DNA from: Candidatus Omnitrophota bacterium
GTDB taxonomy: Bacteria; Omnitrophota; Gorgyraeia; Pluralincolimonadales; Pluralincolimonadaceae
Direction of reading: 5' to 3'
Length of the DNA stretch: 37,674 nt
Assembly: GCA_030695925.1 (NCBI GenBank)
Contig: JAUYOH010000047.1
Location: 1 to 37,674, forward strand
Shown here: positions 568 to 15,267 of the stretch, in pieces
Numbering within the stretch: position 1 is the stretch's first letter
Layout: each line of letters begins with the position of its first letter
Position numbers and translations under genes: made by a program
The notes under the pieces: generated by a model
What the model was told of the DNA's origin: nothing
What the model saw: the letters and a program-made list of their open reading frames with translations, nothing else
Database searches by the model: none

Positions 568-3500
568 TTGCATTTTAAGAGCCTTGAGCTTTTCGGATTT
601 AAGTCGTTCGCCAACAAGACCGAGTTAAATTTCGAACCCGGTGTCACCGCTATAGTCGGGCCCAACGGCTGCGGCAAATCCAATATCTCCGACGCGATAA
701 AATGGGTCCTCGGAGAGACCTCGGCCAGAGAAATCCGCGGCCTGCGGATGGAAGACGTCATATTCAGCGGCACCGACGGCAAAGAAGCGCTCGGCTTCGC
801 AGAAGTATCCCTCACGATAGTAAACCAGCCAAAGATCCTGCCCACGGAATACGATGAAGTCACGATCACCAGAAGGGTCTTCCGTTCCAGCGAGAGTGAA
901 TATTTCATAAACAAAGTCCCTGTCCGCTTAAAGGACATCGCCGAACTTTTAATGGGCACAGGTATCGGCACCTCCACTTATTCTTTGATGGAACAGGGAA
1001 GGATAGACCAGTTATTGGATTCCCGTCCCGAGGAAAGGCGTTTTGTCTTTGAAGAGGCAGCCGGTATCACCAGATATAAATCCAAGAAAAAAGAGGCCCT
1101 AAGGAAATTAGAGCAGACAGAGGCCAACCTCTTGAGGGTCAATGACGTTATCACCGAAGTCAAGCGCCAGATAAACTCCATAGAGCGGCAGGCAAACAAG
1201 GCGAGAAGATACAAAGAGGACTTTGACAAATTGAAGGAATTCGAGGTCCTTTCCGCCGCGCACGAATTTAGGAAGATCGGACAGGAAGAAGGCAGTGTCT
1301 CATCGGACAAAGATTCTCTCGCGGCAAAAGAGAGCGAGCTGTTTTCTATGATCAACGACCTCGATTCAAAGATGGCCTCTTTACGCGAAGATCTGGCAGG
1401 AGTCGATCAGCGGTTATCCGACGCGAAGGCGAACGTCGTCGATATCGACGGCCAGATAGAAAGGAACAAGGACAAGGCATCATATAATTATGAAAGAGTA
1501 TCCGAACTTAACGCCCGGATAGCCAATTTAGAGAAAGATATAAACGCCAATAGGGCGCGGCTTTCTAATTTAGAAAACGAGGTGTCGCGTCTGAATTCCG
1601 AAGCCAACTCATTTACGGCCAACGAAGAGAATAAAAAAATAGAAATAGAAGAGAAGAGCGTATATCTCGATGCTATAGCCGAAGCCGTCAAGACTTGCCA
1701 ATCGAATATCGAAAAAGCGAAAGCATATGTGGTCGATGTAGCGCAGGGGCAGACACGGACTCATAACGAACTTACGAAGTTGGTCGCAAATACTCAGCAT
1801 TTAAGCGCGCGCCAGAGAAGGATAGAGGTAGAGAAGCGCAAGGTCGAAGAGGAAAGAGCCGCTTCCGGGCAAAAACTGCAGGAATTATCCGCCTTCGTGG
1901 AGAATATATCCAAGGATATCGAAGGATTGAATTGGAAGAAGGCGCAGGCGGAAGGTGATTTAAACACTCTTGGCGAAGAGCTGTCTAATTCGGAGACGCG
2001 GCTGCAGACTTTAAACAGCGAATTGACCGCGGAACAATCGAGGCTTGTATTCCTGGAGGACTTAAAGTCGAGATACGAGGGGTTTTCCTTAGGAGTCAAA
2101 TCCATCCTGAAGGAAGTAGAGAAAGGTTCTCCCGTCTCCGAGGGAATAATAGGGGTGTTGGCCGATCTTATAGAGCCGTTTCAGGGCTATGACAGCGCCG
2201 TTGAGGCCGCTTTAGGCGATTCGGCGCAGGCGATCATCGTGAAGGATAAGGAGACCTCTAAGAAGTTGATAAGATTCCTTGATGAACATTCTTTGGGGCG
2301 CGCGACATTTGTTCCGCTGGAAGGGCTGGGAGGGATAGAGGTAAAGACCGACCTCTTGAATTATATTAAGGCCGGTGAAAATATAAGGCCCGCGCTGTCA
2401 TACCTATTAAACGATGTTTATCTGGCGGAAGACCTGGAATCGGCATTTAACGGCATATCGGGAAAAGCCGCGGGAGTAAGACTGGTCACGAAGAACGGCG
2501 AGGTCGTCGAGAAGAGCCTATTCACCGGAGGTAGGATACCGCGGGATGAGGGCTTCGGACTTATCGGAAGGGACGCGAAGATAAAAGAACTGAAGGTAGA
2601 TACGGAAAGCCTTGAGGCAAAGATCGAAGTCCTTGATAAAGAGATTCACGAAAAGAAGCAACATAGGGACAGCCTGCAGGCTGCCACCAAAACGATAGCG
2701 GAGGATATACACAGGATACAGATCGAGCATGCCAATAAGATAAGTGAAAAGTCGGGCATCGAGGAAGCCGTCGGTAAATTGAACGAGGAGGAGTCACTTC
2801 TTAATCTGGAATTCGACGAGGTAAAGTCCGAGATAGGCATACTTGTAGTGAAGGAAGAGGAATTAAAAAAGGAACTCTCCCAATTAAATTACGAAGACGC
2901 GAAGGTTCAGGAGACCATAAAAGGCAATCAGGATACCATCTCCCTTAAGTTAAAAGAGAGGGAGGATACCCTTGTCCTGATAACGCAGCTGAAGACAAGT
3001 CTCGACTTACTCAAGGATAAAGAGACCTCGGTCCTGAATGCCTTAAATATGATGGCGCGTTCGCTGGACGATGAGAAGACCAGTCTCGGCTCCAAGGAAA
3101 GCGAGATAGAGCAGTCAAAGGCCAAGATATCGGAGCTCCGGATCGAATCCGAGCAACTTACCAAGAACAATGAGACGCTGCTCGCCGGCAGGTCGACAGC
3201 GCAGGAAGATTCCCTTAAAATTTTAGAGGAAAGAAAGGTATCGGCGGATTCGATAACGAAACAGGAATTCGAAGTCAGGGATGTTCAAAAGCGGCTTGAG
3301 GAGATAAGGGGTCAGGTACATACTCTTAACGTGAAGACGACGGAATTTAATTATAAGAAGAGCGGTTTACGCGACAGGTTAGTGCAAGTTTATAAGATAG
3401 AATTAGATTTGGAGCAGGTTACGATACCTGAGGATACGAATTGGGAGGAGACAAACGGTAAGATAGGAGTTTTGAGGTCGAAACTTGACCAGATGGGTCC

Positions 3501-4122
3501 TGTCAATCTCGTCGCCATAGAGGAACATCAGGAATTGCAGGAGAGGTATACTTTCCTTACGACACAGCAGCAGGACCTGTTGCTTGCCAAGGATGATCTA
3601 CATAAGGCGATCAACAAGATCAATAGGACCACAAGAGAACTCTTCCTCGAGACCTTCGAGAAGATACAGGTCGAGTTCAGGAATATGTTCAGGATGCTCT
3701 TCGGCGGCGGCGACGCGGAACTGATGCTTATCGACCAATCGGACATATTAGAGAGCGGCATAGAGATAATTGCGAGGCCTCCGGGCAAGAAGCCACAGTC
3801 TATCTCGCTTTTATCCGGCGGCGAGCGTTCGATGACGGCGATATCGCTCCTCTTCGCTATATTCAAGGTAAAGCCGAGCCCGTTCTGCGTCTTAGATGAG
3901 ATGGACGCGGCATTAGACGAGTCAAATATCGACAGATTCTGCAAGGTCTTAAGAGATTTCGTTAAGACATCACAGTTTATTATGATCACCCATAACAAGA
4001 AGACGATTTCGGTTGCGGACGTCATGTACGGGATCACTATGGAGGAGTCCGGTGTATCGAAGATCGTTTCGGTTAAATTTTCAGATGAGGTGGAGGCGAA
4101 GACCGTAAATGCGACACATTAA
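568..4122 (+). CDS. smc: Chromosome segregation protein SMC
   Basis: The 1184-residue length is typical of bacterial SMC, the ATPase that forms a ring with ScpA/ScpB and organises and separates chromosomes in the nucleoid. The N-terminal head has Walker A GPNGCGKSN at about residues 31-39. Two long charged coiled coils (about 170-500 and 680-1000) flank a hinge at about 520-650 (GIIGVLADLIEP to FTGGRIPR). The C-terminal head has the signature LLSGGERSM near 1081 and Walker B CVLDEMDAAL near 1107. The start is TTG at 568, chosen because GGGAGG lies 8 nt upstream and the protein then begins MHFKSLELFGFKSF, the normal SMC N-terminus. It has its own promoter and a leader that may mask the ribosome binding site. 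scpA and scpB are not nearby. Confidence 0.97.
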   Translation: MHFKSLELFGFKSFANKTELNFEPGVTAIVGPNGCGKSNISDAIKWVLGETSAREIRGLRMEDVIFSGTDGKEALGFAEVSLTIVNQPKILPTEYDEVTITRRVFRSSESEYFINKVPVRLKDIAELLMGTGIGTSTYSLMEQGRIDQLLDSRPEERRFVFEEAAGITRYKSKKKEALRKLEQTEANLLRVNDVITEVKRQINSIERQANKARRYKEDFDKLKEFEVLSAAHEFRKIGQEEGSVSSDKDSLAAKESELFSMINDLDSKMASLREDLAGVDQRLSDAKANVVDIDGQIERNKDKASYNYERVSELNARIANLEKDINANRARLSNLENEVSRLNSEANSFTANEENKKIEIEEKSVYLDAIAEAVKTCQSNIEKAKAYVVDVAQGQTRTHNELTKLVANTQHLSARQRRIEVEKRKVEEERAASGQKLQELSAFVENISKDIEGLNWKKAQAEGDLNTLGEELSNSETRLQTLNSELTAEQSRLVFLEDLKSRYEGFSLGVKSILKEVEKGSPVSEGIIGVLADLIEPFQGYDSAVEAALGDSAQAIIVKDKETSKKLIRFLDEHSLGRATFVPLEGLGGIEVKTDLLNYIKAGENIRPALSYLLNDVYLAEDLESAFNGISGKAAGVRLVTKNGEVVEKSLFTGGRIPRDEGFGLIGRDAKIKELKVDTESLEAKIEVLDKEIHEKKQHRDSLQAATKTIAEDIHRIQIEHANKISEKSGIEEAVGKLNEEESLLNLEFDEVKSEIGILVVKEEELKKELSQLNYEDAKVQETIKGNQDTISLKLKEREDTLVLITQLKTSLDLLKDKETSVLNALNMMARSLDDEKTSLGSKESEIEQSKAKISELRIESEQLTKNNETLLAGRSTAQEDSLKILEERKVSADSITKQEFEVRDVQKRLEEIRGQVHTLNVKTTEFNYKKSGLRDRLVQVYKIELDLEQVTIPEDTNWEETNGKIGVLRSKLDQMGPVNLVAIEEHQELQERYTFLTTQQQDLLLAKDDLHKAINKINRTTRELFLETFEKIQVEFRNMFRMLFGGGDAELMLIDQSDILESGIEIIARPPGKKPQSISLLSGGERSMTAISLLFAIFKVKPSPFCVLDEMDAALDESNIDRFCKVLRDFVKTSQFIMITHNKKTISVADVMYGITMEESGVSKIVSVKFSDEVEAKTVNATH

Positions 4123-4150
4123 ATGCGCCGCATTTAGATCATCTTGATCT
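4121..4150. repeat. Inverted repeats at the smc / GGDEF convergent junction
   Basis: AAATGCG-c-CGCATTT (4121-4135) is followed directly by AGATCA-tct-TGATCT (4136-4150). These overlap the last bases of both convergent genes. There is no T-tract on either side, so a role as a two-way terminator is only possible, not shown. Confidence 0.35.
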
Positions 4151-5308
4151 ATAGGCGCAGACCCGGTTTTTGCCGGTTCTTTTGGCCTCGTACAGCGCCA
4201 TGTCAGCCAGATAGATCAATTTTTCCTTATCGAGCGCGTCTTCCGGGTAGGTAGCCAGGCCGGCGCTTATCGTCAGGTTCTTGGTCGGCTGGACATCCTG
4301 GCCTTTAAACTGGTATGCCTCGATGGCTTTCCTTAGATTTTCGGTTATCTCAAACGCCTTGCCGTTCGCGACATTAGGCAGTATCACCGCGAATTCCTCG
4401 CCGCCGTAACGCGCGACTTCCCCCTGGCCATCGCAGGTGGTCTTTAATATTCTCGCGATCTCGCGCAATAGCTGGTCTCCCATCTGATGGCCTAAGGCGT
4501 CATTATAATTTTTGAAGTTATCGATATCGAACATGATAAGGGAAACAGGCGCCTTGTTTTCGTATGCCTTTTTCAGTTCCTCGGTCAAAAGATATTGAAA
4601 ATAACCATGGTTCCACAGCCGTGTGAGGGAATCTGTATTAGCTTCATAGACCATCTGTTCATAAAGGCGCGAGTTCTCGATAGCGAGCCCACCGTGGTTG
4701 GCGAACATCGTCAGAGTCCTTATATCGTCTTTTGTTATGGGTTTTTTGGTAAAGATGTTATCGGCAAGGATCACGGCCACGACCTTGTCTTTCGCTTTTA
4801 ACGGCACCGTGACGAAATACTCGGTCTTAAGGGTCTGGAGGACGGGATCATGCGCGAGTTTCTGGCGCGCCTCCTCGGTAGTGACCTCAAAGGTCATCCC
4901 CTCCAGCACGCTTAACGCTAGGACACCCGCGTCTTCACGCAACGGTATCTTGATGCCGCGGACGATCTTATCCAATTCCGAGCCGCCTTTCTTATAGTGA
5001 CGGTATCGGGCTATGAGGTCTTCCAGCGTCATCTTTTCGGTCTCGATCTTTGTCCAGATACGCCCGGCGTCTTCTCCCGAATGCGGGCCTATTCCCATCT
5101 TGCCCTCAAGGGTGTTGTCTTCCTCGTTTACGAGAAAGAGCATAGCCCTGTTGAAGCCGAGCCCTTCATGCGCGGTCACGCCGGTCAATATTATAAAGAG
5201 GATCTCCTCAAGTTTTAACGTCGAGCGCATAGCGTTGCCGATCTCATAGAATATACTCAGTTCCGCCCGTATCCTGTCCAGCATTTCCTGCAGATTTTTC
5301 TTTTCCAT
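4139..5308 (-). CDS. GAF-GGDEF protein, probable diguanylate cyclase
   Basis: The product is about 389 residues. A short N-terminal helix leads into a GAF-like sensory region (about 25-195, SIFYEIGNAMRSTLKLEEIL onward), then a GGDEF domain (about 215-385) with NTDSLTRLWNHGYF, FDIDNFKNYND and the active-site motif RYGGEEFAVILP. GGDEF domains join two GTP into c-di-GMP. The GGEEF form is catalytically competent, and I saw no RxxD inhibitory site just upstream. No membrane segment is visible, so it is likely cytosolic. I start it at ATG 5308 (MEKKNLQEML) rather than TTG 5347, because TTG 5347 is itself the first base of a -35 element and the matching -10 lies between the two candidates. The gene converges on smc. 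Confidence 0.88.
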   Translation of the reverse strand: MEKKNLQEMLDRIRAELSIFYEIGNAMRSTLKLEEILFIILTGVTAHEGLGFNRAMLFLVNEEDNTLEGKMGIGPHSGEDAGRIWTKIETEKMTLEDLIARYRHYKKGGSELDKIVRGIKIPLREDAGVLALSVLEGMTFEVTTEEARQKLAHDPVLQTLKTEYFVTVPLKAKDKVVAVILADNIFTKKPITKDDIRTLTMFANHGGLAIENSRLYEQMVYEANTDSLTRLWNHGYFQYLLTEELKKAYENKAPVSLIMFDIDNFKNYNDALGHQMGDQLLREIARILKTTCDGQGEVARYGGEEFAVILPNVANGKAFEITENLRKAIEAYQFKGQDVQPTKNLTISAGLATYPEDALDKEKLIYLADMALYEAKRTGKNRVCAYRSR

Positions 5309-5318
5309 AATAGCGCTT

Positions 5319-5347
5319 ATGATACCCCATAAGGGCCGGCTTGTCAA
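5319..5347 (-). promoter_or_regulatory. Promoter of the GGDEF gene
   Basis: On the minus strand TTGACA (5347-5342) is followed after exactly 17 bp by TATCAT (5324-5319). Only 10 nt separate the -10 from ATG 5308, so the transcript would be leaderless or have a leader of a few bases. No good Shine-Dalgarno precedes the ATG, which fits. Confidence 0.65.
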
Positions 5348-5363: not shown

Positions 5364-5378
5364 GATTAAAAGCCTTGA
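5364..5378 (+). repeat. 15-bp direct repeat, left edge of the accessory island
   Basis: GATTAAAAGCCTTGA here is identical to 13786-13800. The two copies sit at the two edges of the AT-richer island, and both lie at the -35 of a plus-strand promoter-like sequence. Confidence 0.5.
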
Positions 5379-5403
5379 AGGTGCGGTATTATAGGGATAT
5401 AAT
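5375..5403 (+). promoter_or_regulatory. Promoter-like sequence at the left island edge
   Basis: TTGAAG (5375-5380), a 17-bp spacer, then a perfect TATAAT (5398-5403). Downstream come AAGGAG (5414-5419) and an ATG at 5431 that opens only 15 codons (stop at 5478). It may be the start of a gene lost at the insertion, or it may drive the toxin-antitoxin pair. Confidence 0.45.
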
Positions 5404-5474
5404 AACATATCGTAAGGAGAGAGTCTTGGGATGCTTAATGTGCCTTACTCTGTATGGCAAATATTTAGATTTAT

Positions 5475-5491
5475 ATAGAAATTATTTCTAT
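5475..5491. promoter_or_regulatory. 17-bp palindrome, candidate operator of the toxin-antitoxin pair
   Basis: ATAGAAATTATTTCTAT is a perfect odd palindrome (8-bp arms around one T), placed 35 bp before the ATG of a gene whose product carries an HTH-like N-terminus. This is the expected place for an autoregulatory site. Confidence 0.45.
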
Positions 5492-5526
5492 TTAACTATG
5501 GATGGATCTAAGGTAAAATAATTCAT

Positions 5527-6669
5527 ATGAGTCGAGTAACTATAAAATCTGAGATGTTGAGCTGGGCTTGTGAGAGGTCTGGCCAGAGCGCGGAGAACAT
5601 GCGCAAGAGATTTCCAAAGTTTGATCTTTGGAATCTTGGAGAGGCGAGTCCTACACTTAAACAACTGGAACGCTTTGCTAAGGCTACATATACACCTATC
5701 GGATTTTTATTCCTTCAAAAGCCACCCATTGAGACTGTCCCGATTCCGGATTTTCGTAATGTTGGTGGCGGGCATGTCGGGCATCCAAGTCCGGATTTGC
5801 TTGATACCATTTACATTTGCCAGCAGCGACAAGAATGGTATCGCGAGTTTGTACGATCCACTGGCGAAAAACCTCTTCCATTTGTAGGTTCCGTTAGCCA
5901 AACAAATAGTATTGAGAAAATTGCAGAAAGTATTCGACATGCACTTGGATTTGACATCGAAGAACGTCGTCAAACGCCAACGTGGACTGACGCATTGCGC
6001 CGCTTCATTGAACAGGCGGATGTGCTTGGGATTTTAATCATGGTGAGTGGCGTTGTCGGAAACAATAATCGGCGTAAACTCGATCCGCAAGAGTTTCGGG
6101 GTTTTGCTTTGGTGGATAACCTCGCACCGCTTGTGTTTATTAATGGTTCTGATACTAAAGCAGCTCAGATGTTTACCCTTGCTCATGAGTTGACTCATAT
6201 TTGGATTGGGCAATCTGCTGTTTCTGATGCACAGGCAGTGCAGATACCTGAAAATCAAATTGAGCGTTGGTGCAATTTGGTTGCTGCAGAACTTCTCGTG
6301 CCTCTTTCCGCATTACGCAGCGAATATAAGAAAAATAATAAATTGACTGATGAAATTAACCGTCTCGCCCGGTGTTTTAAGGTTAGTACGCTAGTAGTCT
6401 TACGCCGAATTCACGATGCGGGTGGACTTACAAAAGAACAATTCTGGAAAGCTTATCATGAAGAACTGGAAAGGTTAGGAAATCTTCCTTCGGGAAGCGG
6501 CGGCAATTTCTATCTAACGCAGGCAGCACGTGTCAGCAAACGTTTTGCCCGGGCGCTTGTTGCCAGTACGCTTGAGGGGCAGACTCTGCATCGCGATGCA
6601 TTTCGTATGCTTGGATTTTCAAAGCTTGAGACCTTCAAAGATCTTGGACGAAGTTTGGGGATAGCCTGA
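5527..6669 (+). CDS. ImmA/IrrE-family metallopeptidase with N-terminal HTH-like region (antitoxin-like partner)
   Basis: This 380-residue protein belongs to the long ImmA/IrrE class (COG2856 type). The N-terminus (about 1-65) resembles an XRE-like helical region (WACERSGQSAENMRKRFPKF, then PTLKQLERFAKATYTPIGFL). The zinc-peptidase core carries HELTH at residues 220-224 (AHELTHIWIG) and a downstream Glu near 255 in CNLVAAELLVP, the usual ligand set. Known relatives cleave repressors or act as the regulatory half of toxin-antitoxin-like pairs. The TGA stop overlaps the ATG of the PIN gene by one base, so the two are translationally coupled. A 17-bp palindrome lies upstream. The sequence is AT-richer than the flanking core genes, which fits acquisition by transfer. 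Confidence 0.85.
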   Translation: MSRVTIKSEMLSWACERSGQSAENMRKRFPKFDLWNLGEASPTLKQLERFAKATYTPIGFLFLQKPPIETVPIPDFRNVGGGHVGHPSPDLLDTIYICQQRQEWYREFVRSTGEKPLPFVGSVSQTNSIEKIAESIRHALGFDIEERRQTPTWTDALRRFIEQADVLGILIMVSGVVGNNNRRKLDPQEFRGFALVDNLAPLVFINGSDTKAAQMFTLAHELTHIWIGQSAVSDAQAVQIPENQIERWCNLVAAELLVPLSALRSEYKKNNKLTDEINRLARCFKVSTLVVLRRIHDAGGLTKEQFWKAYHEELERLGNLPSGSGGNFYLTQAARVSKRFARALVASTLEGQTLHRDAFRMLGFSKLETFKDLGRSLGIA

Positions 6670-7163
6670 TGGCATATTTACTCGATGCTAATGTTTTCAT
6701 ACAGGCGAAAAACCTTCACTATGGTCTTGATTTTTGTCCGGCGTTCTGGGAGTGGCTAATAGCGAATAATACGGCTAAACTAGTCTTTAGTATCGAAAAG
6801 GTTGGCGATGAAATTAATGCTGGTGCGGATGAACTTGCTGTTTGGGCGACACAGCGCGGAGCAGATTTTTTTCTTAAGCCGGATGTTACGATATTACCTG
6901 CACTTAGCTCAGTTAGCACTTGGGCAGCGAGTCAAAGTTACGAACCCGTTGCTGTAAATACATTCCTCCAGGTTGCTGATTACTACTTGGTAGCTCATGC
7001 TCTTGCCCATGGACATACAGTTGTAACACATGAAAAAATGTATAGTTCAATGAAGAAGATAGGTATTCCTAACGCGTGTATCAGCCTCAAAATTAAGTTT
7101 ATGACGCCGTATGAAATGCTTCGCCATGAGCGGGCACGTTTTGTCCTTGGTTCCCGAGGTTAG
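6669..7163 (+). CDS. PIN-domain ribonuclease-like protein (DUF4411 type), putative toxin
   Basis: This is a 164-residue protein with a PIN-like fold: an N-terminal strand with the first acidic residue at Asp6 (AYLLDANVFIQA), acidic residues around 43-48 (EKVGDE), and ADYYLVAHALAHGHTVVTHE at about 103-122 giving Asp104 as a further metal ligand. PIN domains are Mg-dependent RNases and the commonest toxin class. The DUF4411 subgroup is repeatedly found directly after ImmA/IrrE genes, as here. The gene starts inside the stop of its partner. The toxin assignment comes from family and context; the RNA target is unknown. Confidence 0.8.
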   Translation: MAYLLDANVFIQAKNLHYGLDFCPAFWEWLIANNTAKLVFSIEKVGDEINAGADELAVWATQRGADFFLKPDVTILPALSSVSTWAASQSYEPVAVNTFLQVADYYLVAHALAHGHTVVTHEKMYSSMKKIGIPNACISLKIKFMTPYEMLRHERARFVLGSRG

Positions 7164-7285
7164 TTTGCTAGGGAGGTCATTAAACAGGTTATAATCTCGT
7201 TCAGCCAGCGACCCTAAGATATAATTTTTGCACCGTGCAGTTGGTTTATTCCGACACTTTATTATTGAAAAAGTAGGAGAAGGGT

Positions 7286-7678
7286 ATGAAAAAAATCATA
7301 GCTTTTGTTGTAACCGGAATATTTTTATTACAAGGATGCGCTACTACCGAAGGCATAAAGAAGCTTGAAGAACAAGGGTCAAAACAAGTTTTTGCTGCAA
7401 ATTTCGAGAAGGTATGGGAGGCTGCTCGTTTCGCCTGTAGCAATAGTGAATTGACCATTAATGAAGCTAACAAAGATCAAGGCTATATTAGTGCAAGTGC
7501 ACCCCTTAGGCCACAATCGTGGGGAGAACTTGTTGGGATTTGGGTAAGTAAGAAGACGGATAATTCCACTGAGGTTAAGGTGGTTAGTCGAAGAGTAGGG
7601 CCGGCATTGCTTTTTTGGTATAATTGGGAAAAACCAGTGCTTGAGGCTATAGATGCTTATATAAAGTCACATCCATGA
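7286..7678 (+). CDS. Small predicted lipoprotein
   Basis: The 130-residue product has a lipoprotein signal: MKK, a hydrophobic core IIAFVVTGIFL, then lipobox LLQGC with Cys18 as the lipid site. The mature part (about 110 residues) has FEKVWEAARFA, ISASAPLRP and a closing KVVSRRVGPALLFWYNWEK stretch, resembling small alpha/beta lipoproteins of the DUF3568 or BamC-like kind, but I do not assign a named family. AGGAGAAGG lies just before the ATG. It stands alone in the island, 120 bp after the PIN gene, with a TATAAT-like sequence near 7219. Confidence 0.75.
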   Translation: MKKIIAFVVTGIFLLQGCATTEGIKKLEEQGSKQVFAANFEKVWEAARFACSNSELTINEANKDQGYISASAPLRPQSWGELVGIWVSKKTDNSTEVKVVSRRVGPALLFWYNWEKPVLEAIDAYIKSHP

Positions 7679-7988
7679 TTTTATCAATTTTTTGTAATGA
7701 TTTGAATATGCCAATCAAACCTATTAGTGTCAAGATTGTTATAAAATCCATTCTTTTAGCCGTTCCTTACGTGCGGTCTAAAAAAGGTCTGAAGGCATAC
7801 ACTCTGGTATAACCCCTGTCTTACTACCCTTGCCATAGAGCTTTTTGCCCTTCGCCGCCCACATTAATCTTAATTGACAGGGGGTTATAAAAGCTATACA
7901 ATTTATCTACATACTAGCCACAAAGGCGTGGCAAATGAAAGTGTTTAAATAGATTCTTATCCGAACAACAACCTCAAAGGAATTATTT
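7679..7988. other. 310-bp intergenic stretch with a promoter and a spaced inverted repeat
   Basis: No convincing gene. It holds an inverted repeat, TATAACCCCTGTC (7808-7820) against GACAGGGGGTTATA (7876-7889), arms matching apart from one extra G/C, loop 55 nt. The right arm overlaps the promoter of the next gene, so it could be a binding site, or the ends of a small decayed element. Confidence 0.45.
7874..7902 (+). promoter_or_regulatory. Promoter of the DUF2085 operon
   Basis: TTGACA (7874-7879), a 17-bp spacer and TACAAT (7897-7902). Transcription would start near 7909, about 80 nt before the TTG start. The right arm of the spaced inverted repeat lies across the -35 and spacer. Confidence 0.55.
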
Positions 7989-8462
7989 TTGGTGCAACTT
8001 AGAAAAACCATAAAATCACTCCTTCTTAGTATCCCATATCTGTTATTGTCCTTCATTCTTGTTATATCGATTATTGCGCCCATCCTAGAGTATCAGAGGC
8101 TAGAAGTATCGCGGAATCTTTATGAAATAACACATAAGATATGCAATCAGCTGCCAACGAGATGCTTATTTATTTTTACTTCTCCGATGGCACTATGTGC
8201 ACGGTGTTTCTTTATCTATTTAGCAATGCTTGTTGTTGGTATTTTAATGATCGTGTTTAAGAAAGTGTTTTTTAGTTGGAAAGTTGGGTTACTGCTAATG
8301 ATTCCGTGCATTATAGATGGATCTACCCAATATCTTGGACAAAGACTGAGTAATAATGCATTAAGATCGGTTACCGGAGCGTTGGCCGGTGTTGGAGCGG
8401 GGGTGATTATTTTTCCGCTTTATTTTAAATTCGTTGATTTTATTACCAGAAAGAGAGGATGA
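7989..8462 (+). CDS. DUF2085-family integral membrane protein
   Basis: The 157-residue product has about four hydrophobic segments (near 11-30, 66-88, 94-112 and 125-148). It carries the cysteine pattern of DUF2085: HKICNQLPTRCLF around residues 49-61 and CARCFFIYLAML around 70-81, matching the family's CHQ...R and CARC..IY motifs. The function of DUF2085 is not established; the paired cysteines suggest metal binding or redox chemistry at the membrane. The start is TTG at 7989 with AAAGGA 7-12 nt upstream; GTG at 7992 is an alternative. It overlaps the next gene by 4 bp (ATGA) and leads a three-gene operon. Confidence 0.75.
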   Translation: MVQLRKTIKSLLLSIPYLLLSFILVISIIAPILEYQRLEVSRNLYEITHKICNQLPTRCLFIFTSPMALCARCFFIYLAMLVVGILMIVFKKVFFSWKVGLLLMIPCIIDGSTQYLGQRLSNNALRSVTGALAGVGAGVIIFPLYFKFVDFITRKRG

Positions 8463-8974
8463 TGAAGGTGGCAAAGTTTTTATGGCGTGGAGTATTTATA
8501 GCCTTATTTTTGTGTTCCATTTGTTCTGTTGGTTCCGCTGAAGAAAAGGTTATTTTGAAAGACGGAACACCCGTAATGCTGCGATTAACGGAAGAAGTGA
8601 GTACAAAAACAAAAAATTTGAATGACTCAATTCATTTCGAAGTCGCAAAAGATGTCAAGGTAAACGGAAAGGTGGTGATTAAGGCGGGTACGCCCGCGGA
8701 TGGGACCGTCAGCGTATGTCAGAAACCGGATATCCTGGGCCAGGAAGGAACAATTGCCTTCACCGTTAATTCCACCGTGACCGTTGACGGACAATGGTTA
8801 TCTCTTCGCGCAAATGTAACAAGAACCGGAGAGAATAAAATGCTGATATCAGCAGGCGCGGCATATGCGTGCTGCCCAGTATTCGGCCTTATAAGGGGTA
8901 GTGGCGCATCTTTCCCTGTTGGATCAGAGACAAAGGCTTATACGGAGAACGACGTAACGGTGAAGGTAGATTAA
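8459..8974 (+). CDS. Secreted protein, first of two tandem paralogs
   Basis: This 171-residue protein has a Sec signal peptide (MMKVAKFLWRGVFIALFLCS, cleavage likely after VGSA near residue 27). The mature protein is beta-rich with short repeats of the pattern DGTPVMLRLTEEVSTKTKN, VAKDVKVNGKVVIKAGTP and TVTVDGQWLSLRANV. It lines up along its whole length with the next gene product: both have the block ending LGxEG, the VDGQ strand, a CC pair and a closing KAY..xD.TVxV. I do not recognise a named family; similar GTP-V-LRL-type beta domains occur in predicted periplasmic proteins. Translation is coupled to the DUF2085 gene by an ATGA overlap; ATG 8462 is an alternative start. Confidence 0.7.
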   Translation: MMKVAKFLWRGVFIALFLCSICSVGSAEEKVILKDGTPVMLRLTEEVSTKTKNLNDSIHFEVAKDVKVNGKVVIKAGTPADGTVSVCQKPDILGQEGTIAFTVNSTVTVDGQWLSLRANVTRTGENKMLISAGAAYACCPVFGLIRGSGASFPVGSETKAYTENDVTVKVD

Positions 8975-8992
8975 AACAAAAAGGAGGGGATT

Positions 8993-9511
8993 ATGGACAA
9001 CATTAAAAAGGTTATCGCAGTTGTTTTGATACCGGCATTTATTATGGCAGCTATGCAATCGTATTGCTTTGCCACACCGGACTCTATGAAGGTCAAAAAT
9101 GGAACACCTGTTATACTACGACTTACCGAAGATGTAAGTAGTAAGACTAAAAATATGAATGAAAGCGTTGCTATGCAAGTTGCAAAGGATGTTATTATTG
9201 ATGGCAAAACAGTTGTTAAGGCCGGCACTCCTGCTATGGGCACAGTTAGTTGGGCGGAGAAGGCCGGGATGTTAGGCAAGGAAGGAAAAATACAAATTAC
9301 AGCAGACTCGACAAAATCGGTTGATGGTCAGAGAATCCCGCTAAGAGCTTCTGTTACGAGCATGGGGAAAAGCGAGACAGTTATGTCGGTTATTATGTCG
9401 ATTCTATGCTGCATTTTGTTTTTGCTTGTTCCCGGGAAAGAAGCAAGCTTACCGATAGGGACCGAGATTAAGGCTTATATAGATCAAGATCTTACGGTAG
9501 AAGTTCAGTAA
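8993..9511 (+). CDS. Secreted protein, second of two tandem paralogs
   Basis: This 172-residue homologue of the preceding gene follows after 18 bp and has its own AAGGAGG. The N-terminus is a signal peptide (KKVIAVVLIPAFIMAAMQSYCFA, cleavage near 25). Shared blocks include NGTPVILRLTEDVSSKTKN, VAKDV, GKTVVKAGTPAMGTVS, LGKEGKIQIT and VDGQRIPLRA. Near the C-terminus it has a hydrophobic stretch (SVIMSILCCILFLLVPG) where the first paralog has a weaker one, so this copy may be membrane-tethered. The pair looks like a local duplication that has since diverged. Its stop codon abuts the stop of the convergent gene with no gap. Confidence 0.7.
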   Translation: MDNIKKVIAVVLIPAFIMAAMQSYCFATPDSMKVKNGTPVILRLTEDVSSKTKNMNESVAMQVAKDVIIDGKTVVKAGTPAMGTVSWAEKAGMLGKEGKIQITADSTKSVDGQRIPLRASVTSMGKSETVMSVIMSILCCILFLLVPGKEASLPIGTEIKAYIDQDLTVEVQ

Positions 9512-10549
9512 CTATTTCGCGTTAATATCGTATCTTTCAGAATGGCTTGATTGAGTTACTACAAGATCTTCATATTCGGCTTGCTGATTATTAGCGAGAA
9601 AAGATAGAGTAAAATCTTCTAATAGATTAACTCTTACTTTCTTAACAAAAGATGGGACTGGGGGGTATCCTCCAGTCTCTTTTTTGTAAAGATAAAACTT
9701 AATATCTATATCCGCATGTTTATTGAAAAACTTTGATATAGCTCCTTCAATAGAATGCGGTTTCTTCGGAACATCTATTATAAAAATATCAGGATATCCA
9801 TCGTTGTTGATATCCGTAAGGTTGTTTTTCTCGTAAAACATGCCAGTCGATACGATGCGCATACCGGGCTTGTTTTTGTATTCGTTTTTTTCATTGTCCA
9901 AAAAGTAAATATTTATAATACATTTTGTATTCGATAATAAAGCGCCGTAATGTTTATAGCTAATTTCCATTTTTTCGGGGATACCATCATTATTAATATC
10001 GTAATATATACCGCTTATCCAAGATGAGGCCCCTTCCTTTATAACCCTGTCAGGCGTATCTGAAAATGAGCCGTTTTTATTTTGATAGTATATTGAATGT
10101 GTGTAAAATTCACTGTTATAATCCGAAGGCTCTTCAATGTTTGTAAAATCAGGCAATCCGTCATTATTCAGATCCGAAATAATAAATTTATTTTTCGAAA
10201 ACGTGCTATCTATAACGCTATATCTTATACGGCTAGAATCATCATTAATACTGAAAACGCTACTGATATCTTGTCCAGATATGCTTTCAAGACGACCATC
10301 GAGCATATCCCGTTGATTAAATCTAGATACACTCAGTGTTTTGTATCCGAATTCATGTAATAAAGCAAAACGCTCATCCTTATCGCCTGCATATAATTTT
10401 ATGCTGCCTGGCTCAATCGATACTCTATTTATGCACCCGCTATTTAACCTAATATCGATTTGATTTTCATCGCCAAGTCCGTTTTGTGCGAATATTAAGA
10501 AAGTAATTACGATACATATAATTGTCAGCGATATTGTTATTGTTTTCAT
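9512..10549 (-). CDS. Secreted FG-GAP/VCBS-repeat protein, last gene of the ABC operon
   Basis: The 345-residue product has a clear signal peptide (MKTITISLTIICIVITFLIF, cleavage near GLG-DE, residue 26). Three calcium-binding-like FG-GAP repeats are visible: DLNNDGLPDF (Asp126), DINNDGIPEK (Asp184) and DINNDGYPDI (Asp246). Each follows a hydrophobic strand, as in beta-propeller or integrin-like folds. No lipobox, transmembrane helix or sorting signal is seen. The start codon overlaps the stop of the upstream FG-GAP gene by 4 bp, so the two are coupled and probably act together outside the cytoplasm. Substrate or ligand is unknown. AT content is high compared with core genes. Confidence 0.75.
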   Translation of the reverse strand: MKTITISLTIICIVITFLIFAQNGLGDENQIDIRLNSGCINRVSIEPGSIKLYAGDKDERFALLHEFGYKTLSVSRFNQRDMLDGRLESISGQDISSVFSINDDSSRIRYSVIDSTFSKNKFIISDLNNDGLPDFTNIEEPSDYNSEFYTHSIYYQNKNGSFSDTPDRVIKEGASSWISGIYYDINNDGIPEKMEISYKHYGALLSNTKCIINIYFLDNEKNEYKNKPGMRIVSTGMFYEKNNLTDINNDGYPDIFIIDVPKKPHSIEGAISKFFNKHADIDIKFYLYKKETGGYPPVPSFVKKVRVNLLEDFTLSFLANNQQAEYEDLVVTQSSHSERYDINAK

Positions 10550-12057
10550 AAAAAGTTTACCGAGATAATATACAAATTATTACCGAGACAGTCTAAAACC
10601 AAGAATTCCTTTTTACCGTCAGCATTAATATCAATTGATTTAATCTCAGATACACTGCAAGGTAGTTTTACATCTACGCTATTATCTATCAATATCAAAT
10701 TATTCCTCTTTTTCAAAATATTAATCTCAACAAGAGAGTTCTTTTTAAGCAAAAGCATATCCATTATTCCGTCATTGTTCATATCGTTAAATCTAACAAA
10801 TCTCCTAGCACTATCTACTTCACCCGGCGAAGGCAAGACAAACGAGAAGCTTTTATTGAACTCAATACTTTTCTCGTAACCATTCTTTCCAATAATAGAA
10901 TATGTTAAACTGAAGCTAATTTCCTTATTTGTGGCTATTTTAATAAGAGATTCTTTTGTCCCGAGCTTAAGAGTAGCTGTTGATGTTACGGCCTCATATT
11001 GTCCATCGCTATCTAGATCTATAATGTTATCTAGGCCAGGAAGAAATACGGTTTTAAATATGTATTTAGGAGACGAATCAAATTGGAGTGGCGCATGCGC
11101 AAGGTATATTTTAGTACTTATTATCGGCAACAAGGAATTATTACCTCGCAATGGGTATTCTATTTTTGATCCAACAATATCTAAAAAGCCATCTTTATTC
11201 ATATCCATAAAACGCATTTCATCAAAATCTCTTTGAACAAAAGAAATGTTTTGTTTTTCAAACCCTCCGCCATGTTTTTGTAGATACATTGTCATCGCAT
11301 TTTCGGCGCCATCCGCCAAATGTATTATATCTAAAAAGCCATCTCCGTCTAAATCTTGAATCCAATAATTGCGCTGCTTGCTAATGGTCGGAAAGAACGA
11401 CAGGCCTCTAATAGTATTTTTTAAATTGTCGCCAACCCGTGGCCAAGAACTAATGTTTAAGTCGGGGCTGATAGAAGTCTCTGCGAATTGTACAAAAGTT
11501 AGTTTAAAAACGGCGGGGCTTTCTTGCCATAGAATAGAAATTCCATTTTCTGAAGGAATTATAATATCATCAAGCCCATCGCTATTCATATCTACAACAA
11601 ATGAATAGTTTTTTATACTTTTTTGTTTTTGAATAAACGCTGGATGGTTTTCTGGAATATTTAGATAATATGGCCCTCCGATTGCACCATCATTGCTTAA
11701 TGAGAAATAAAAAATCCTAGTTTCGCCAAGACATAGCACACTTTCCCTAGAGGTTTTATCAAGCCTAACCGGATTTACCGCCATAATTTTGTCTTTTAGT
11801 TTTATTGTATATGGTTCAAAAACGAGATCACGGCTTTGTCTAAAAATAGTTAATTCGTAGTCATCGGCCACTATTACATCCTTCAGCCCATTGCCCGCGA
11901 AATCACAACTTGTTACATAAATTGGTTTGTGTTTAACGTCCAAAGAAACGATTTTTATGTTATTAGAGTTAGATACCGCTGGAGCTGCAACCGAGATAGG
12001 ACTAAAAATTGATATAAAAAATAGGCCCAAAAAAGGGAGGCGGTGCCATCTTATCAT
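10546..12057 (-). CDS. Secreted FG-GAP/VCBS-repeat protein, third gene of the ABC operon
   Basis: This 503-residue protein has a signal peptide (MIRWHRLPFLGLFFISIFSP, cleavage after SVAA near 25). At least six D-x-N/D-x-D-G repeats are spread along it: DMNSDG (156), DLDGDG (235), DMNKDG (285), DLDSDG (347), DMNNDG (425) and DINADG (476), with a degenerate DFAGNG near 52. About seven blades fit a seven-bladed propeller covering the whole chain. Such proteins are usually exported and bind calcium and ligands or surfaces. It starts 1 nt after the permease stop, with no separate ribosome site seen, so it is translated with the transporter genes. Confidence 0.78.
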   Translation of the reverse strand: MIRWHRLPFLGLFFISIFSPISVAAPAVSNSNNIKIVSLDVKHKPIYVTSCDFAGNGLKDVIVADDYELTIFRQSRDLVFEPYTIKLKDKIMAVNPVRLDKTSRESVLCLGETRIFYFSLSNDGAIGGPYYLNIPENHPAFIQKQKSIKNYSFVVDMNSDGLDDIIIPSENGISILWQESPAVFKLTFVQFAETSISPDLNISSWPRVGDNLKNTIRGLSFFPTISKQRNYWIQDLDGDGFLDIIHLADGAENAMTMYLQKHGGGFEKQNISFVQRDFDEMRFMDMNKDGFLDIVGSKIEYPLRGNNSLLPIISTKIYLAHAPLQFDSSPKYIFKTVFLPGLDNIIDLDSDGQYEAVTSTATLKLGTKESLIKIATNKEISFSLTYSIIGKNGYEKSIEFNKSFSFVLPSPGEVDSARRFVRFNDMNNDGIMDMLLLKKNSLVEINILKKRNNLILIDNSVDVKLPCSVSEIKSIDINADGKKEFLVLDCLGNNLYIISVNFL

Positions 12058-12058
12058 T

Positions 12059-12856
12059 CTATTTAAATTCCGAGTTCTTCATTGCAATAAGTGATATAAC
12101 CGAGGTAATAAATATCCACAAAACAGAAATAATAAAACAATAATAGACTTTAGGGGCCCAAGTTATAGGGAATCCTTCAACCATATCACTTATTCTATCC
12201 AGCGGAAATTCTATATATGAGGAATAAATAAAATTTTCTATATGCAATTTTGTTTTAATACCCTCAAGCATTATGTAAGAACCGATTGCGATTGCAATAG
12301 CGCTAATGGTAGTTTGAGTAATCGTCGATATCATTATACCGAACGAGATGCCTGCGAATAAAACAATAGCAAGAGTAACGTAAGAGATTAAAAACAACGA
12401 CCAGAATTGGTGTTGAGTTACGATTACCAGGCCATCTTCGCTTAAAGCGCCAAATCCAAAAAGCATAGAGCCTATTATAATCGCAGCAATCGCTGCTATG
12501 ATCATTAAAAGCAGCAGAAACACGAAGCTTGAAATAAGCTTTGATAAAATGAACTGATTTTTTGAGCATCCGGACACTAATATGTTTCGTATGGTTCCGG
12601 AAGCTTTTTCTGAAGATATGGTGTTAGTAGCAAACATTAACAATATAAACGGCAATATAGTCGTTGAAAGGGTTTGTAGGGAAAACACAATAAAAGAGTA
12701 ACCATTATTGGCGTTGTTAGTTCCTTCAATAAATTTTATTCCAAAGGATGATGCGATTACCGCTGCTAACACAAATACTATATAGACATAAGTAGTCTTG
12801 TGCTTTATCATCTTAAAAATCTCGTTCAATGTTGCCTGTTTTAAATGGTTAATCAT
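12059..12856 (-). CDS. ABC-2 type transporter permease
   Basis: This 265-residue membrane protein has six hydrophobic segments: about 20-40, 53-75, 100-130, 140-175, 180-200 and 235-258. It shows the ABC-2 permease layout, with the NTISSEKASGTIRNIL coupling segment after the second helix. It pairs with the ATPase gene, whose stop overlaps its start by 4 bp (ATGA). Permeases of this kind work in export of drugs, peptides, lipids or polysaccharides, or in immunity and gliding systems. Here the direct downstream genes encode two secreted FG-GAP proteins, so a link to surface function is inferred. Confidence 0.85.
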   Translation of the reverse strand: MINHLKQATLNEIFKMIKHKTTYVYIVFVLAAVIASSFGIKFIEGTNNANNGYSFIVFSLQTLSTTILPFILLMFATNTISSEKASGTIRNILVSGCSKNQFILSKLISSFVFLLLLMIIAAIAAIIIGSMLFGFGALSEDGLVIVTQHQFWSLFLISYVTLAIVLFAGISFGIMISTITQTTISAIAIAIGSYIMLEGIKTKLHIENFIYSSYIEFPLDRISDMVEGFPITWAPKVYYCFIISVLWIFITSVISLIAMKNSEFK

Positions 12857-13665
12857 TGTCGGTTTCTTTGTATCGTTTCAATGTAGAATTCTTTTAAATT
12901 CTTTTTGCGAGGAATAAATTTAAAATCCTTAACCCAAGGTTTATCCATAAGAAACTTTTTGCATTCATCCGGTCTAGTTGTTGTCACAATGCAAGATTGC
13001 GCGTCTTCTTTTAGTAGCTCGTGAAGCTTACCGTCACATAGAATAGATCCATTATTAATGATGGCGATTTTGTTACAAATAGACTCCACATCAAACACCT
13101 GATGACTTGATATTATAATTGTTTTTTGTTTATTTATAGAAAGATCTTGTAATAAGGCTAATATGATATGAATGCCTTCAGGATCAAGGCCATTTGTTGG
13201 TTCGTCCAATATAAGAATAGCCGGATCAGAAATAAGGGCAGAGGCAAGGGCTAATCTTTGTTTCATTCCCAGTGAATATCTTTTTACCAAATCATTTGCC
13301 CTATCTAAAAGAGAGACCATGTCTAGTAACCTGTCAATCTCGCTGTTTTTATGAACTCCCTTCAACCTCGCCATCAATGCCATGTTTTCTCTGCCGGTAA
13401 GATAATCGTAAAAGCTTGGGTTTTCGAACAGAATGCCCATAGAATTTAGAATTTCTTTTCTATCTACGCATAAGTTCTTTTCGTCGATTGTTATGTAGCC
13501 TCGGCTTGGTTCTATCAAACCGGTAATCATGCTAAGTATAGTGCTCTTTCCGGCACCATTTGGCCCTAGCAGAGCAAATAGATCCCCGCGGCTTATGAGC
13601 AAATCAACGTCTTTTACGGCACACTTCGCCCCAAAACATTTAGTGACTTTCTTCAATTCAATCAT
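12853..13665 (-). CDS. ABC transporter ATP-binding protein (NatA/BcrA type)
   Basis: A complete 270-residue ABC ATPase: Walker A GPNGAGKST (34-42), FENPSFYDYLTGRENM (80-95, typical of the BcrA/NatA exporter group), signature YSLGMKQR (130-137), Walker B LILDEPTNGLDPEG (about 151-164) and the switch His in IISSHQV. The C-terminal 50 residues form the small extra domain common in this group. It energises the overlapping permease. It is the first gene of the leftward operon. The start is ATG 13665, with TATAAT only 8 nt upstream and no Shine-Dalgarno, so it probably makes a leaderless transcript. Confidence 0.9.
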   Translation of the reverse strand: MIELKKVTKCFGAKCAVKDVDLLISRGDLFALLGPNGAGKSTILSMITGLIEPSRGYITIDEKNLCVDRKEILNSMGILFENPSFYDYLTGRENMALMARLKGVHKNSEIDRLLDMVSLLDRANDLVKRYSLGMKQRLALASALISDPAILILDEPTNGLDPEGIHIILALLQDLSINKQKTIIISSHQVFDVESICNKIAIINNGSILCDGKLHELLKEDAQSCIVTTTRPDECKKFLMDKPWVKDFKFIPRKKNLKEFYIETIQRNRQ

Positions 13666-13673
13666 ATATTTGA

Positions 13674-13679
13674 ATTATA
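13674..13679 (-). promoter_or_regulatory. -10 element of the ABC/FG-GAP operon
   Basis: On the minus strand a perfect TATAAT lies at 13679-13674, 8 nt before the ATG. The -35 region (TACTAA at 13702-13697) is weak. This spacing puts the transcript start at or within 2 nt of the start codon. Confidence 0.45.
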
Positions 13680-13785
13680 TCATACACTCTCGCATATTAG
13701 TAGAAGATACTCGCCAGTAAGGAGATGTGGATGTGTTAAAGAGGAGAATGGTGCCGAAGGGTGCTCTAAAATAGTATGTCATCTC

Positions 13786-13800
13786 GATTAAAAGCCTTGA
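13786..13800 (+). repeat. 15-bp direct repeat, right edge of the accessory island
   Basis: GATTAAAAGCCTTGA, identical to 5364-5378. Its last four bases are the start of the rib operon -35 element. Confidence 0.5.
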
Positions 13801-13825: not shown

Positions 13826-13832
13826 TATCTTA

Positions 13833-13968
13833 CTCTTCGGGAGGGGTGAAATTCCCCACTGGCGGTAAAGCCCGCGAGCCTTAGGCGTATTGATTTACGA
13901 AGTAAATCAGCCGGGGGCAGATCTGGAGAAATCCCAGAGCCAATAGTAAAGTCTAGATGGGAGAAGAG
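13833..13968 (+). ncRNA. FMN riboswitch (RFN element)
   Basis: The conserved RFN cores are readable in order: AGGGGTGAAATTCCCC (13842-13857), ACTGGCGGTAAAGCCCGCGA, GGCAGATCTGGAGAAATCC, CCAATAGTAAAGTCTAGATG and GGGAGAAGAG. The P1 stem is CTCTTC (13833-13838) with GAAGAG (13963-13968). The variable arm holds an 8-bp hairpin, TGATTTAC-gaa-GTAAATCA (13891-13909). It sits between the rib promoter and ribBA and is followed by a terminator at 14011-14043. FMN binding should reduce expression of the rib operon. Confidence 0.95.
13891..13909 (+). repeat. Small hairpin repeat, copy 1 (inside the FMN riboswitch)
   Basis: TGATTTAC-gaa-GTAAATCA, flanked by GCGTAT on the left and GCCGGGGG on the right. 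It matches the hairpin at 15281-15299 in sequence and flanks, with stem base pairs exchanged in a compensatory way. Confidence 0.6.
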
Positions 13969-14010
13969 AGAAGCAATTTTATCCACTTTCGCCGTAGAAG
14001 GCGAAATTAC

Positions 14011-14055: not shown

Positions 14056-15267
14056 ATGTTCAACACCATAAAAGAAGCCATATATGATATCCGCAAGGGC
14101 AGGATGATAATAGTCGTCGATGATGAGGACCGCGAGAATGAGGGCGACCTCCTCATGGCGGCAGAGTTCGCGACACCCGAGGCGATAAATTTTATGGCCA
14201 AATACGCCCGCGGCCTGATATGCGTACCGATGGAAGAAGCGAGATTAAAGGAACTCGGTATCCATGTCCTCTCGGAACAGGGAGGCGGACATTTCGGGAC
14301 CGGATGGGCGATGACGATAGACTTGAAGGAGGGCACTACTACCGGCATCTCGGCGCACGACAGGGCGAAGACGATAAAGGCGCTGGTGGACTCCAAGACG
14401 AAGCCCGATGACCTGACGCGCCCCGGCCATGTATTTCCTTTGAGGGCTAAAGAAGGAGGCGTTTTGGTAAGGGCCGGTCATACCGAGGCGGCGGTAGATC
14501 TGGCGCGGCTCTCCCGACAACACGTCGGGATTCCTCCTGTGGGCGTCATCTGCGAGATAATGAATGATGACGGGACGATGGCGAGGACGCCGCAGTTAAT
14601 AGAGTTCGCCAGGCAGCATAAGTTAAAGATCTGCACTATCGCGGACCTTATTAAATACCGGATGGAGTCGGAGAAACTCGTCATACGCATAGAGGAGACG
14701 GTCCTTCCGACCGATTACGGCGAATTCAGGTTGATCTTGTACGAATCAAGGATAGACAAACAGGTCAATGTAGCGCTGGTTATGGGTGAGATATCCGATA
14801 AACCGGCTTTAGTGAGGGTCCATTCAGAATGTTTGACAGGAGACGTATTCTCTTCGTTGCGCTGCGATTGCGGAAGCCAGTTACATCGGGCCCTGGCTAT
14901 GATCAGGAAAGAAGGCGGGGGCGTTCTTCTTTATATGCGTCAGGAAGGCCGTGGCATCGGTCTGAAGAATAAGATAAAAGCATACGCGCTTCAGGATAAA
15001 GGGATGGATACGGTCGAGGCCAACGAAGCGCTGGGCTTCGGGCCTGACCTTAGGGATTACGGCATAGGCGCTCAGATACTTGCCGACTTGGGCCTAAATA
15101 GGATACGCCTTATGACGAACAATCCCAAAAAGATAGTCGGGCTTGAGGGTTATGGGTTAAAGGTCATTGAGCGGGTAGCCATAGAGATCGCGCCTAACCC
15201 GATGAATAAGAAATATCTCAAGGCGAAGAAAGAGAAGCTGGGACACGTTTTGAAGGGGATAAGTTAA
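14056..15267 (+). CDS. ribBA: Bifunctional 3,4-dihydroxy-2-butanone-4-phosphate synthase / GTP cyclohydrolase II
   Basis: This 403-residue enzyme feeds both branches of riboflavin synthesis. The RibB half (about 1-200) has [21 protein letters not shown] near the N-terminus and [14 protein letters not shown], which makes DHBP from ribulose 5-phosphate. The RibA half (about 205-403) has the zinc site [20 protein letters not shown] and [18 protein letters not shown], which opens GTP. ATG 14056 is preceded by AAGGAGA. The frame is open further up to ATG 13957, but that lies inside the aptamer and would run through the terminator, so it is not the start. The loop [19 protein letters not shown] is about four residues longer than the usual ARLxGLxPxGVICEI, and the extra part coincides with a perfect palindrome at 14512-14530. 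Confidence 0.96.
14512..14530 (+). repeat. Palindromic element inserted in the ribBA coding sequence
   Basis: TCCCGAC-aacac-GTCGGGA forms a 7-bp perfect hairpin and codes for most of SRQHVGI. The same arms with another 5-nt loop occur at 15316-15334 after ribBA. The protein has about four extra residues here compared with family members. Confidence 0.6.

Follow-up and report, generated by a model that had tools for sequence, protein, structure and literature searches.

A horizontally acquired ABC-2 transporter operon with two secreted FG-GAP proteins in an Omnitrophota genome

What could an ABC transporter have in common with two secreted FG-GAP proteins that are encoded in the same operon? 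This question is posed by a locus of Candidatus Omnitrophota bacterium (assembly GCA_030695925.1), which lies in a window of 37,674 nucleotides that comprises a whole contig (JAUYOH010000047.1, C21 in our numbering) of a 1.7 Mb genome, 94.6% complete with 7.4% contamination. The four-gene operon, read on the minus strand from 13665 to 9512, is confirmed as genuine, and all its open reading frames and junctions are as described in a previous sequence-only reading of this DNA, namely, a chain of genes linked by ATGA overlaps or a 1-nt gap:

13665-12853, minus strand: ABC ATPase (P0004), 270 aa, LanF/BcrA-like
12856-12059, minus strand: ABC-2 permease (P0003), 265 aa, six helices
12057-10546, minus strand: secreted FG-GAP protein (P0002), 503 aa, seven DxDxDG-type loops
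10549-9512, minus strand: secreted FG-GAP protein (P0001), 345 aa, three loops
13666-13680, minus strand: TATAAT hexamer stretch, as read in the sequence, immediately 5' of the ATPase ATG and without a Shine-Dalgarno sequence

The overlaps, of 4 nt each, are at the junctions of the ATPase gene with the permease gene and of the 503-aa with the 345-aa FG-GAP gene, and the 1-nt gap separates the permease gene from that of the 503-aa protein. The genes had thus been placed correctly, whereas the outer coordinate of 13679 that had been assigned to the operon lies 14 nt upstream of the ATPase ATG. The TATAAT stretch raises the possibility that the ATPase gene has a leaderless start, and the energy of the Shine-Dalgarno duplex before its ATG is +0.6 kcal/mol; the promoter scan scored no promoter just upstream of this ATG. 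The lack of a Shine-Dalgarno sequence was also considered as a sign of a foreign donor but this idea was dropped because several resident genes lack one as well.

What kind of transporter is encoded in this operon? The motifs of the ATPase are complete (Walker A GPNGAGKS, signature YSLGMKQ, Walker B ILILDEP and an H-loop), and the protein matches PF00005 with E=4e-32. The permease contains six hydrophobic helices, as judged by hydropathy, and matches both PF12679 (E=1.5e-13, 51 bits vs the cut-off of 27) and PF12730 (E=1.4e-12, 48 bits vs 27). This combination of full ATPase motifs with a six-helix permease that scores above the ABC2_membrane family cut-off is that of an ABC-2 transporter. The assignment to a narrower family is less straightforward: the top NCBIfam scores of the ATPase, all of them below the respective cut-offs, include DrrA (203 bits) and the lantibiotic-protection ATPases (198 bits), the permease shows a weak match to the lantibiotic-immunity permease MutG, and both proteins remain under the NCBIfam cut-off for every exporter family shown. 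The best plasmid relatives of the ATPase (40-46% identity) are sited in ATPase-permease-permease operons of the LanFEG type, one of which, on the Staphylococcus epidermidis plasmid pIVK45, is part of a lanthipeptide cluster. Taken together, the family scores of the ATPase and the operons of its plasmid relatives suggest that the pump is a self-protection exporter.

Both secreted proteins match the Pfam family FG-GAP_3 (PF13517), the 503-aa protein with E=1e-22 (81 bits vs the cut-off of 27) and the 345-aa protein with E=1.1e-12 (49 bits vs 27). The former carries seven calcium-loop motifs, at residues 52, 156, 235, 285, 347, 425 and 476, and the latter three, at residues 126, 184 and 246, with an unassigned region N-terminal to them, compared to 0.08 and 0.06 motifs, respectively, in shuffled sequences (maximum 2). 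The seven and three repeats proposed earlier are thus confirmed, with one small amendment: the gap of 104 residues between the first two loops of the 503-aa protein could accommodate a degenerate blade, so that this protein may have either 7 or 8 blades. The single-sequence structure models of both proteins have a pLDDT of 33, too low to be informative about a closed, calcium-loaded beta-propeller fold. Each protein contains a lone N-terminal hydrophobic segment and none further in, a pattern that is compatible with a Sec signal, and can fairly be taken to leave the cytoplasm through Sec and not through the ABC transporter, as had already been proposed. Neither a lipobox nor a sorting domain was seen in either protein and, therefore, a periplasmic site is as likely as the surface.

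Where did the operon come from? It makes up one half of an island that is inserted into the short piece of intergenic DNA between a GAF-GGDEF (diguanylate-cyclase) gene and the FMN-riboswitch/ribBA operon. The edges, the flanks and the remaining cargo are as follows:

5364..5378, plus strand: left copy of the 15-bp direct repeat GATTAAAAGCCTTGA, perfect, left island edge
13786..13800, plus strand: right copy of the 15-bp direct repeat GATTAAAAGCCTTGA, overlapping the -35 of the ribBA promoter, right island edge
5379..13800, no strand: inserted island, 8.42 kb, one unit plus one repeat copy
568-4122: SMC, resident flank gene
4139-5347: GAF-GGDEF protein, resident flank gene
13829..13972, plus strand: FMN riboswitch of the ribBA operon (RF00050, 104.5 bits), neighbour of the island and outside it
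5527..7163, plus strand: M78 (IrrE-like) protein (PF06114, E=3e-16) and DUF4411 PIN-like protein (PF14367, E=3e-51)
7286..9511, plus strand: putative lipoprotein, DUF2085 membrane protein and two tandem secreted paralogues, island cargo

The repeat occurs only twice in the 1.7 Mb genome, both times at the island edges. The site is empty in five genomes from the same family, where the GGDEF gene directly adjoins the FMN-riboswitch/ribBA operon and SMC is located beyond. When one repeat copy and everything between the copies are excised in silico, the resulting site aligns with these empty sites. The only congener (G001) is homologous to the window up to about 5358 and again from about 13788. 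What lies in between differs: one end holds a TPR-like gene, and the opposite end has an RHS-repeat gene together with a gene for a CPBP-type membrane protein and TPR-like remnants (the TPR-like label is our own reading). With other cargo at this position in the congener, the site is an accessory-gene insertion hotspot in the genus. The composition tells the same story: the GC3 of the island is 0.31-0.44 vs 0.58-0.66 in the flanking genes, and the codon-usage distance between island and resident genes is 0.18-0.20, compared to 0.04-0.06 among the residents, all in agreement with a foreign origin. The four operon genes are nearly identical in composition (GC3 of 0.31-0.36), and the codon usage of the plus-strand and minus-strand halves differs somewhat (0.107), so the island might be a mosaic. 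An assembly chimera was ruled out given that both flanks match the relatives and the joints are on a repeat of only 15 bp. Thus, a foreign insertion with known edges is well supported, and the proposal that the operon belongs to an AT-rich accessory island is borne out by the empty site in relatives, the edge repeat, the other cargo in the congener and the low GC3. The 15-bp repeat may be either a target-site duplication or an attachment core; among the genes found in the island, there were no above-cut-off matches to integrase or transposase families, and the search for terminal inverted repeats at the edges yielded only 8-nt chance matches.

The rest of the cargo is mixed. The M78 and DUF4411 PIN-like genes, which overlap by 1 nt, are likely to be a toxin-antitoxin pair. 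The tandem secreted paralogues (8459-9511) are 49% identical to each other, belong to no family, and have no relatives among the 99 genomes searched. The stop codon of the second of these genes (8993-9511, plus strand) abuts that of the convergent 345-aa FG-GAP gene (9512), and a strong terminator-like hairpin on the plus strand (9654-9679) falls within the latter gene. On the right-hand side, the resident genes include, among others, ribBA and those for lumazine synthase and NusB; the start that is listed for ribBA, at 13957, falls inside the FMN riboswitch, and the relatives point to a true start near 14056.

Is this gene arrangement shared with any other organisms? The sequence-only reading had envisaged an undescribed conserved surface system, and the searches argue against such conservation, their outcome in the sets covered being the one that this reading itself had named as refuting. 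No full-length relative of either FG-GAP protein or of the permease turned up among the 246-285 genomes of the class and phylum, and a search of class and phylum genomes with the ATPase gave no relative at E<=1e-55. The individual domains are common, with FG-GAP_3 detected in 77 of the 246 genomes and ABC2_membrane_2 permeases in 136, and yet, by our reading of the matches listed, the window is the only place where the two occur on one contig, the contigs of the searched class genomes being short. At 30 FG-GAP loci inspected with 1.5 kb on either side, there was no neighbouring ATPase gene, and a similar ABC ATPase or permease was likewise lacking from 12 larger FG-GAP regions of other class genomes, so that the FG-GAP genes inspected there stand without such ABC genes. 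Beyond the phylum, a single degenerate-pattern scan of genome contigs, with the 503-aa protein as the query, returned only motif matches, and the same was the outcome of the searches of plasmid and viral contigs for relatives of the FG-GAP proteins and the permease. Two candidates were discarded, namely, a viral match (L118) that turned out to be spurious, being a phage-type protein with a stretch of 25 residues in common, and a 2291-aa multi-repeat secreted protein (L008), which was rejected as a homologue. The four-gene order is accordingly known from one genome only, a combination of ordinary parts that is unseen elsewhere in the sets searched, and as such is not yet a conserved system; with no homologous operon found, coupling cannot be argued from co-conservation.

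So what might the four proteins do? The answer that we favour, if only tentatively, is that this is a horizontally acquired self-protection ABC-2 exporter of the LanF/BcrA class, with the FG-GAP pair as its outside partners. Under this hypothesis, the ATPase and a permease homodimer would be placed in the inner membrane, whereas both FG-GAP proteins would cross it through Sec and, once folded around calcium in the periplasm, would either bind a harmful ligand (an amphipathic peptide or another envelope-active compound being most likely) or dock on the permease, with ATP hydrolysis clearing the ligand from the membrane. The gene order, the domains, the secretion signals and the foreign insertion are directly established; calcium binding, the physical coupling of the four products, the direction of transport and the ligand are inferred, the coupling of the FG-GAP proteins to the pump being deduced from the operon structure alone. 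The setting, a hotspot whose cargo is toxin-antitoxin-like in this genome and includes an RHS gene in the congener, suits a protective trait, and PedA1A2BC (PMC6839425) and NosDFY are precedents showing that ABC-2 transporters do take secreted partners. The single permease gene, the absence of lanthipeptide genes and of a regulator, and the family scores below the cut-offs count against this reading, as does the fact that many FG-GAP proteins are adhesins or lectins that stand alone. A stronger version, in which the calcium-propeller pair of FG-GAP proteins joins the permease in an ATP-driven complex and so makes a new type of ABC-2 exporter, appears rather doubtful.

Several other scenarios have to be weighed. 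The FG-GAP proteins are weakly similar to the XAC2610 family (E=1e-4 and 4e-4, under the cut-off), to PliI (E=0.05) and to the Psathyrella lectin PVL (E=0.012), and might be independent periplasmic or surface inhibitors or lectins that are simply co-transcribed with the exporter in a protective cassette, for example, blocking the cell-wall hydrolase of a rival, as the XAC2610/PliI propellers do, or binding glycans. A precedent is XAC2610, whose fold resembles a beta-propeller and which confers protection from a peptidoglycan hydrolase (PMC10933484), and the occurrence of FG-GAP genes without ABC genes elsewhere in the class is compatible with such autonomy. The weak matches span mostly the common calcium-loop motif, however, and no hydrolase toxin gene is adjacent; this role is a serious second option, although somewhat unlikely. 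The pump could also be something other than an exporter of the drug type, namely, a mechanical transmitter or an importer in a machine akin to NosDFY or PedA1A2BC, where the propellers would be fixed periplasmic subunits that pass a metal ion or a cofactor to or from the ABC-2 core. The same part list is found in PedA1A2BC (PMC6839425), the ATPase scores 155 bits on the model of the PQQ-system ABC ATPase, and the marginal similarity of the permease to the NosY subunit in the solved NosDFY structure (E=0.07), along with the single DxDxDG loop in each of the class NosD proteins that adjoin ABC-2 genes, is suggestive as well. Nevertheless, the ATPase falls far under the cut-off of that model (155 of 302 bits), PedA2 is a YVTN repeat protein and NosD a beta-helix, neither of them FG-GAP, and no gene for a PQQ dehydrogenase, NosL or N2O reductase was detected among the scanned island proteins and neighbours; we consider a machine of this type unlikely. 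That an exporter and an adhesin-like gene pair, functionally unlinked, came together in the island by chance would be in keeping with the single occurrence of the gene order, the mixed cargo and the foreign codon usage, but strikes us as quite improbable in view of the start/stop overlaps at two of the three junctions, the 1-nt gap at the third, the single strand and the nearly identical composition of the four genes.

If the four products do form one machine, calcium-loop (integrin-like) propellers would join the short list of secreted proteins known to partner with ABC-2 transporters, and would offer a testable way for an exporter to sense its ligand on the outer side of the membrane. Should they form no such machine, a clean insertion with known edges in a hotspot shared with a congener is useful for tracking gene gain in an uncultured lineage.

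How does the locus compare with the systems already described? The nearest relatives of the ATPase are of the LanFEG/BcrAB type, which also includes short ABC-2 permeases, but the LanFEG cut-offs are missed by both proteins (198 vs 310 bits for the ATPase and 26 vs 117 bits for the permease), LanFEG has two distinct permeases vs the single permease gene here, FG-GAP partners are absent from LanFEG and BcrAB, and the present locus contains neither lanthipeptide genes nor a sensor. The secreted FG-GAP_3 (VCBS-like) proteins belong to the same repeat family as both operon proteins, but in the regions examined elsewhere in the class are either alone or large and multi-repeat, without such ABC genes. 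NosDFY, the copper-site maturation transporter that is present in the same class, shares the layout of an ABC-2 permease, an ATPase and a secreted partner and differs in that this partner, NosD, is a beta-helix rather than an FG-GAP protein; NosL, N2O reductase and a NosD beta-helix were not found among the island proteins and neighbours scanned. The NosD-NosF-NosY-NosL operons of other class genomes (L071-L076) encode a NosD with a conserved loop of the WSDYRGxDADxDGxGD type. PedA1A2BC is a lanthanide importer that is encoded beside PQQ dehydrogenases and has a homologue in Methylobacterium. In Pseudomonas putida, it consists of a permease, an ATPase, a YVTN beta-propeller and a second periplasmic protein, and is required for efficient growth at nanomolar lanthanide (PMC6839425). 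Both are four-gene ABC operons that combine a permease and an ATPase with a secreted propeller-type protein and a second secreted protein; the propeller of PedA2 is, however, of the YVTN type vs FG-GAP here, the ATPase of the present operon scores 155.4 bits vs the cut-off of 302.25 on TIGR03864 (PQQ-system ABC ATPase), and among the island proteins and large neighbours scanned, there is no PQQ dehydrogenase gene. The literature searched contained no ABC-2 exporter paired with FG-GAP propellers. The previous statement that no named system has this order has to be qualified given that PedA1A2BC (PMC6839425) and NosDFY hold the same kind of parts, and with these two systems known, the concept of an ABC-2 transporter with a secreted propeller or helix partner is not new. 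Since the locus lacks defining features of each of PedA1A2BC, NosDFY and LanFEG, we file it under none of these families and describe it for what it is, an ABC-2 transporter operon with FG-GAP proteins.
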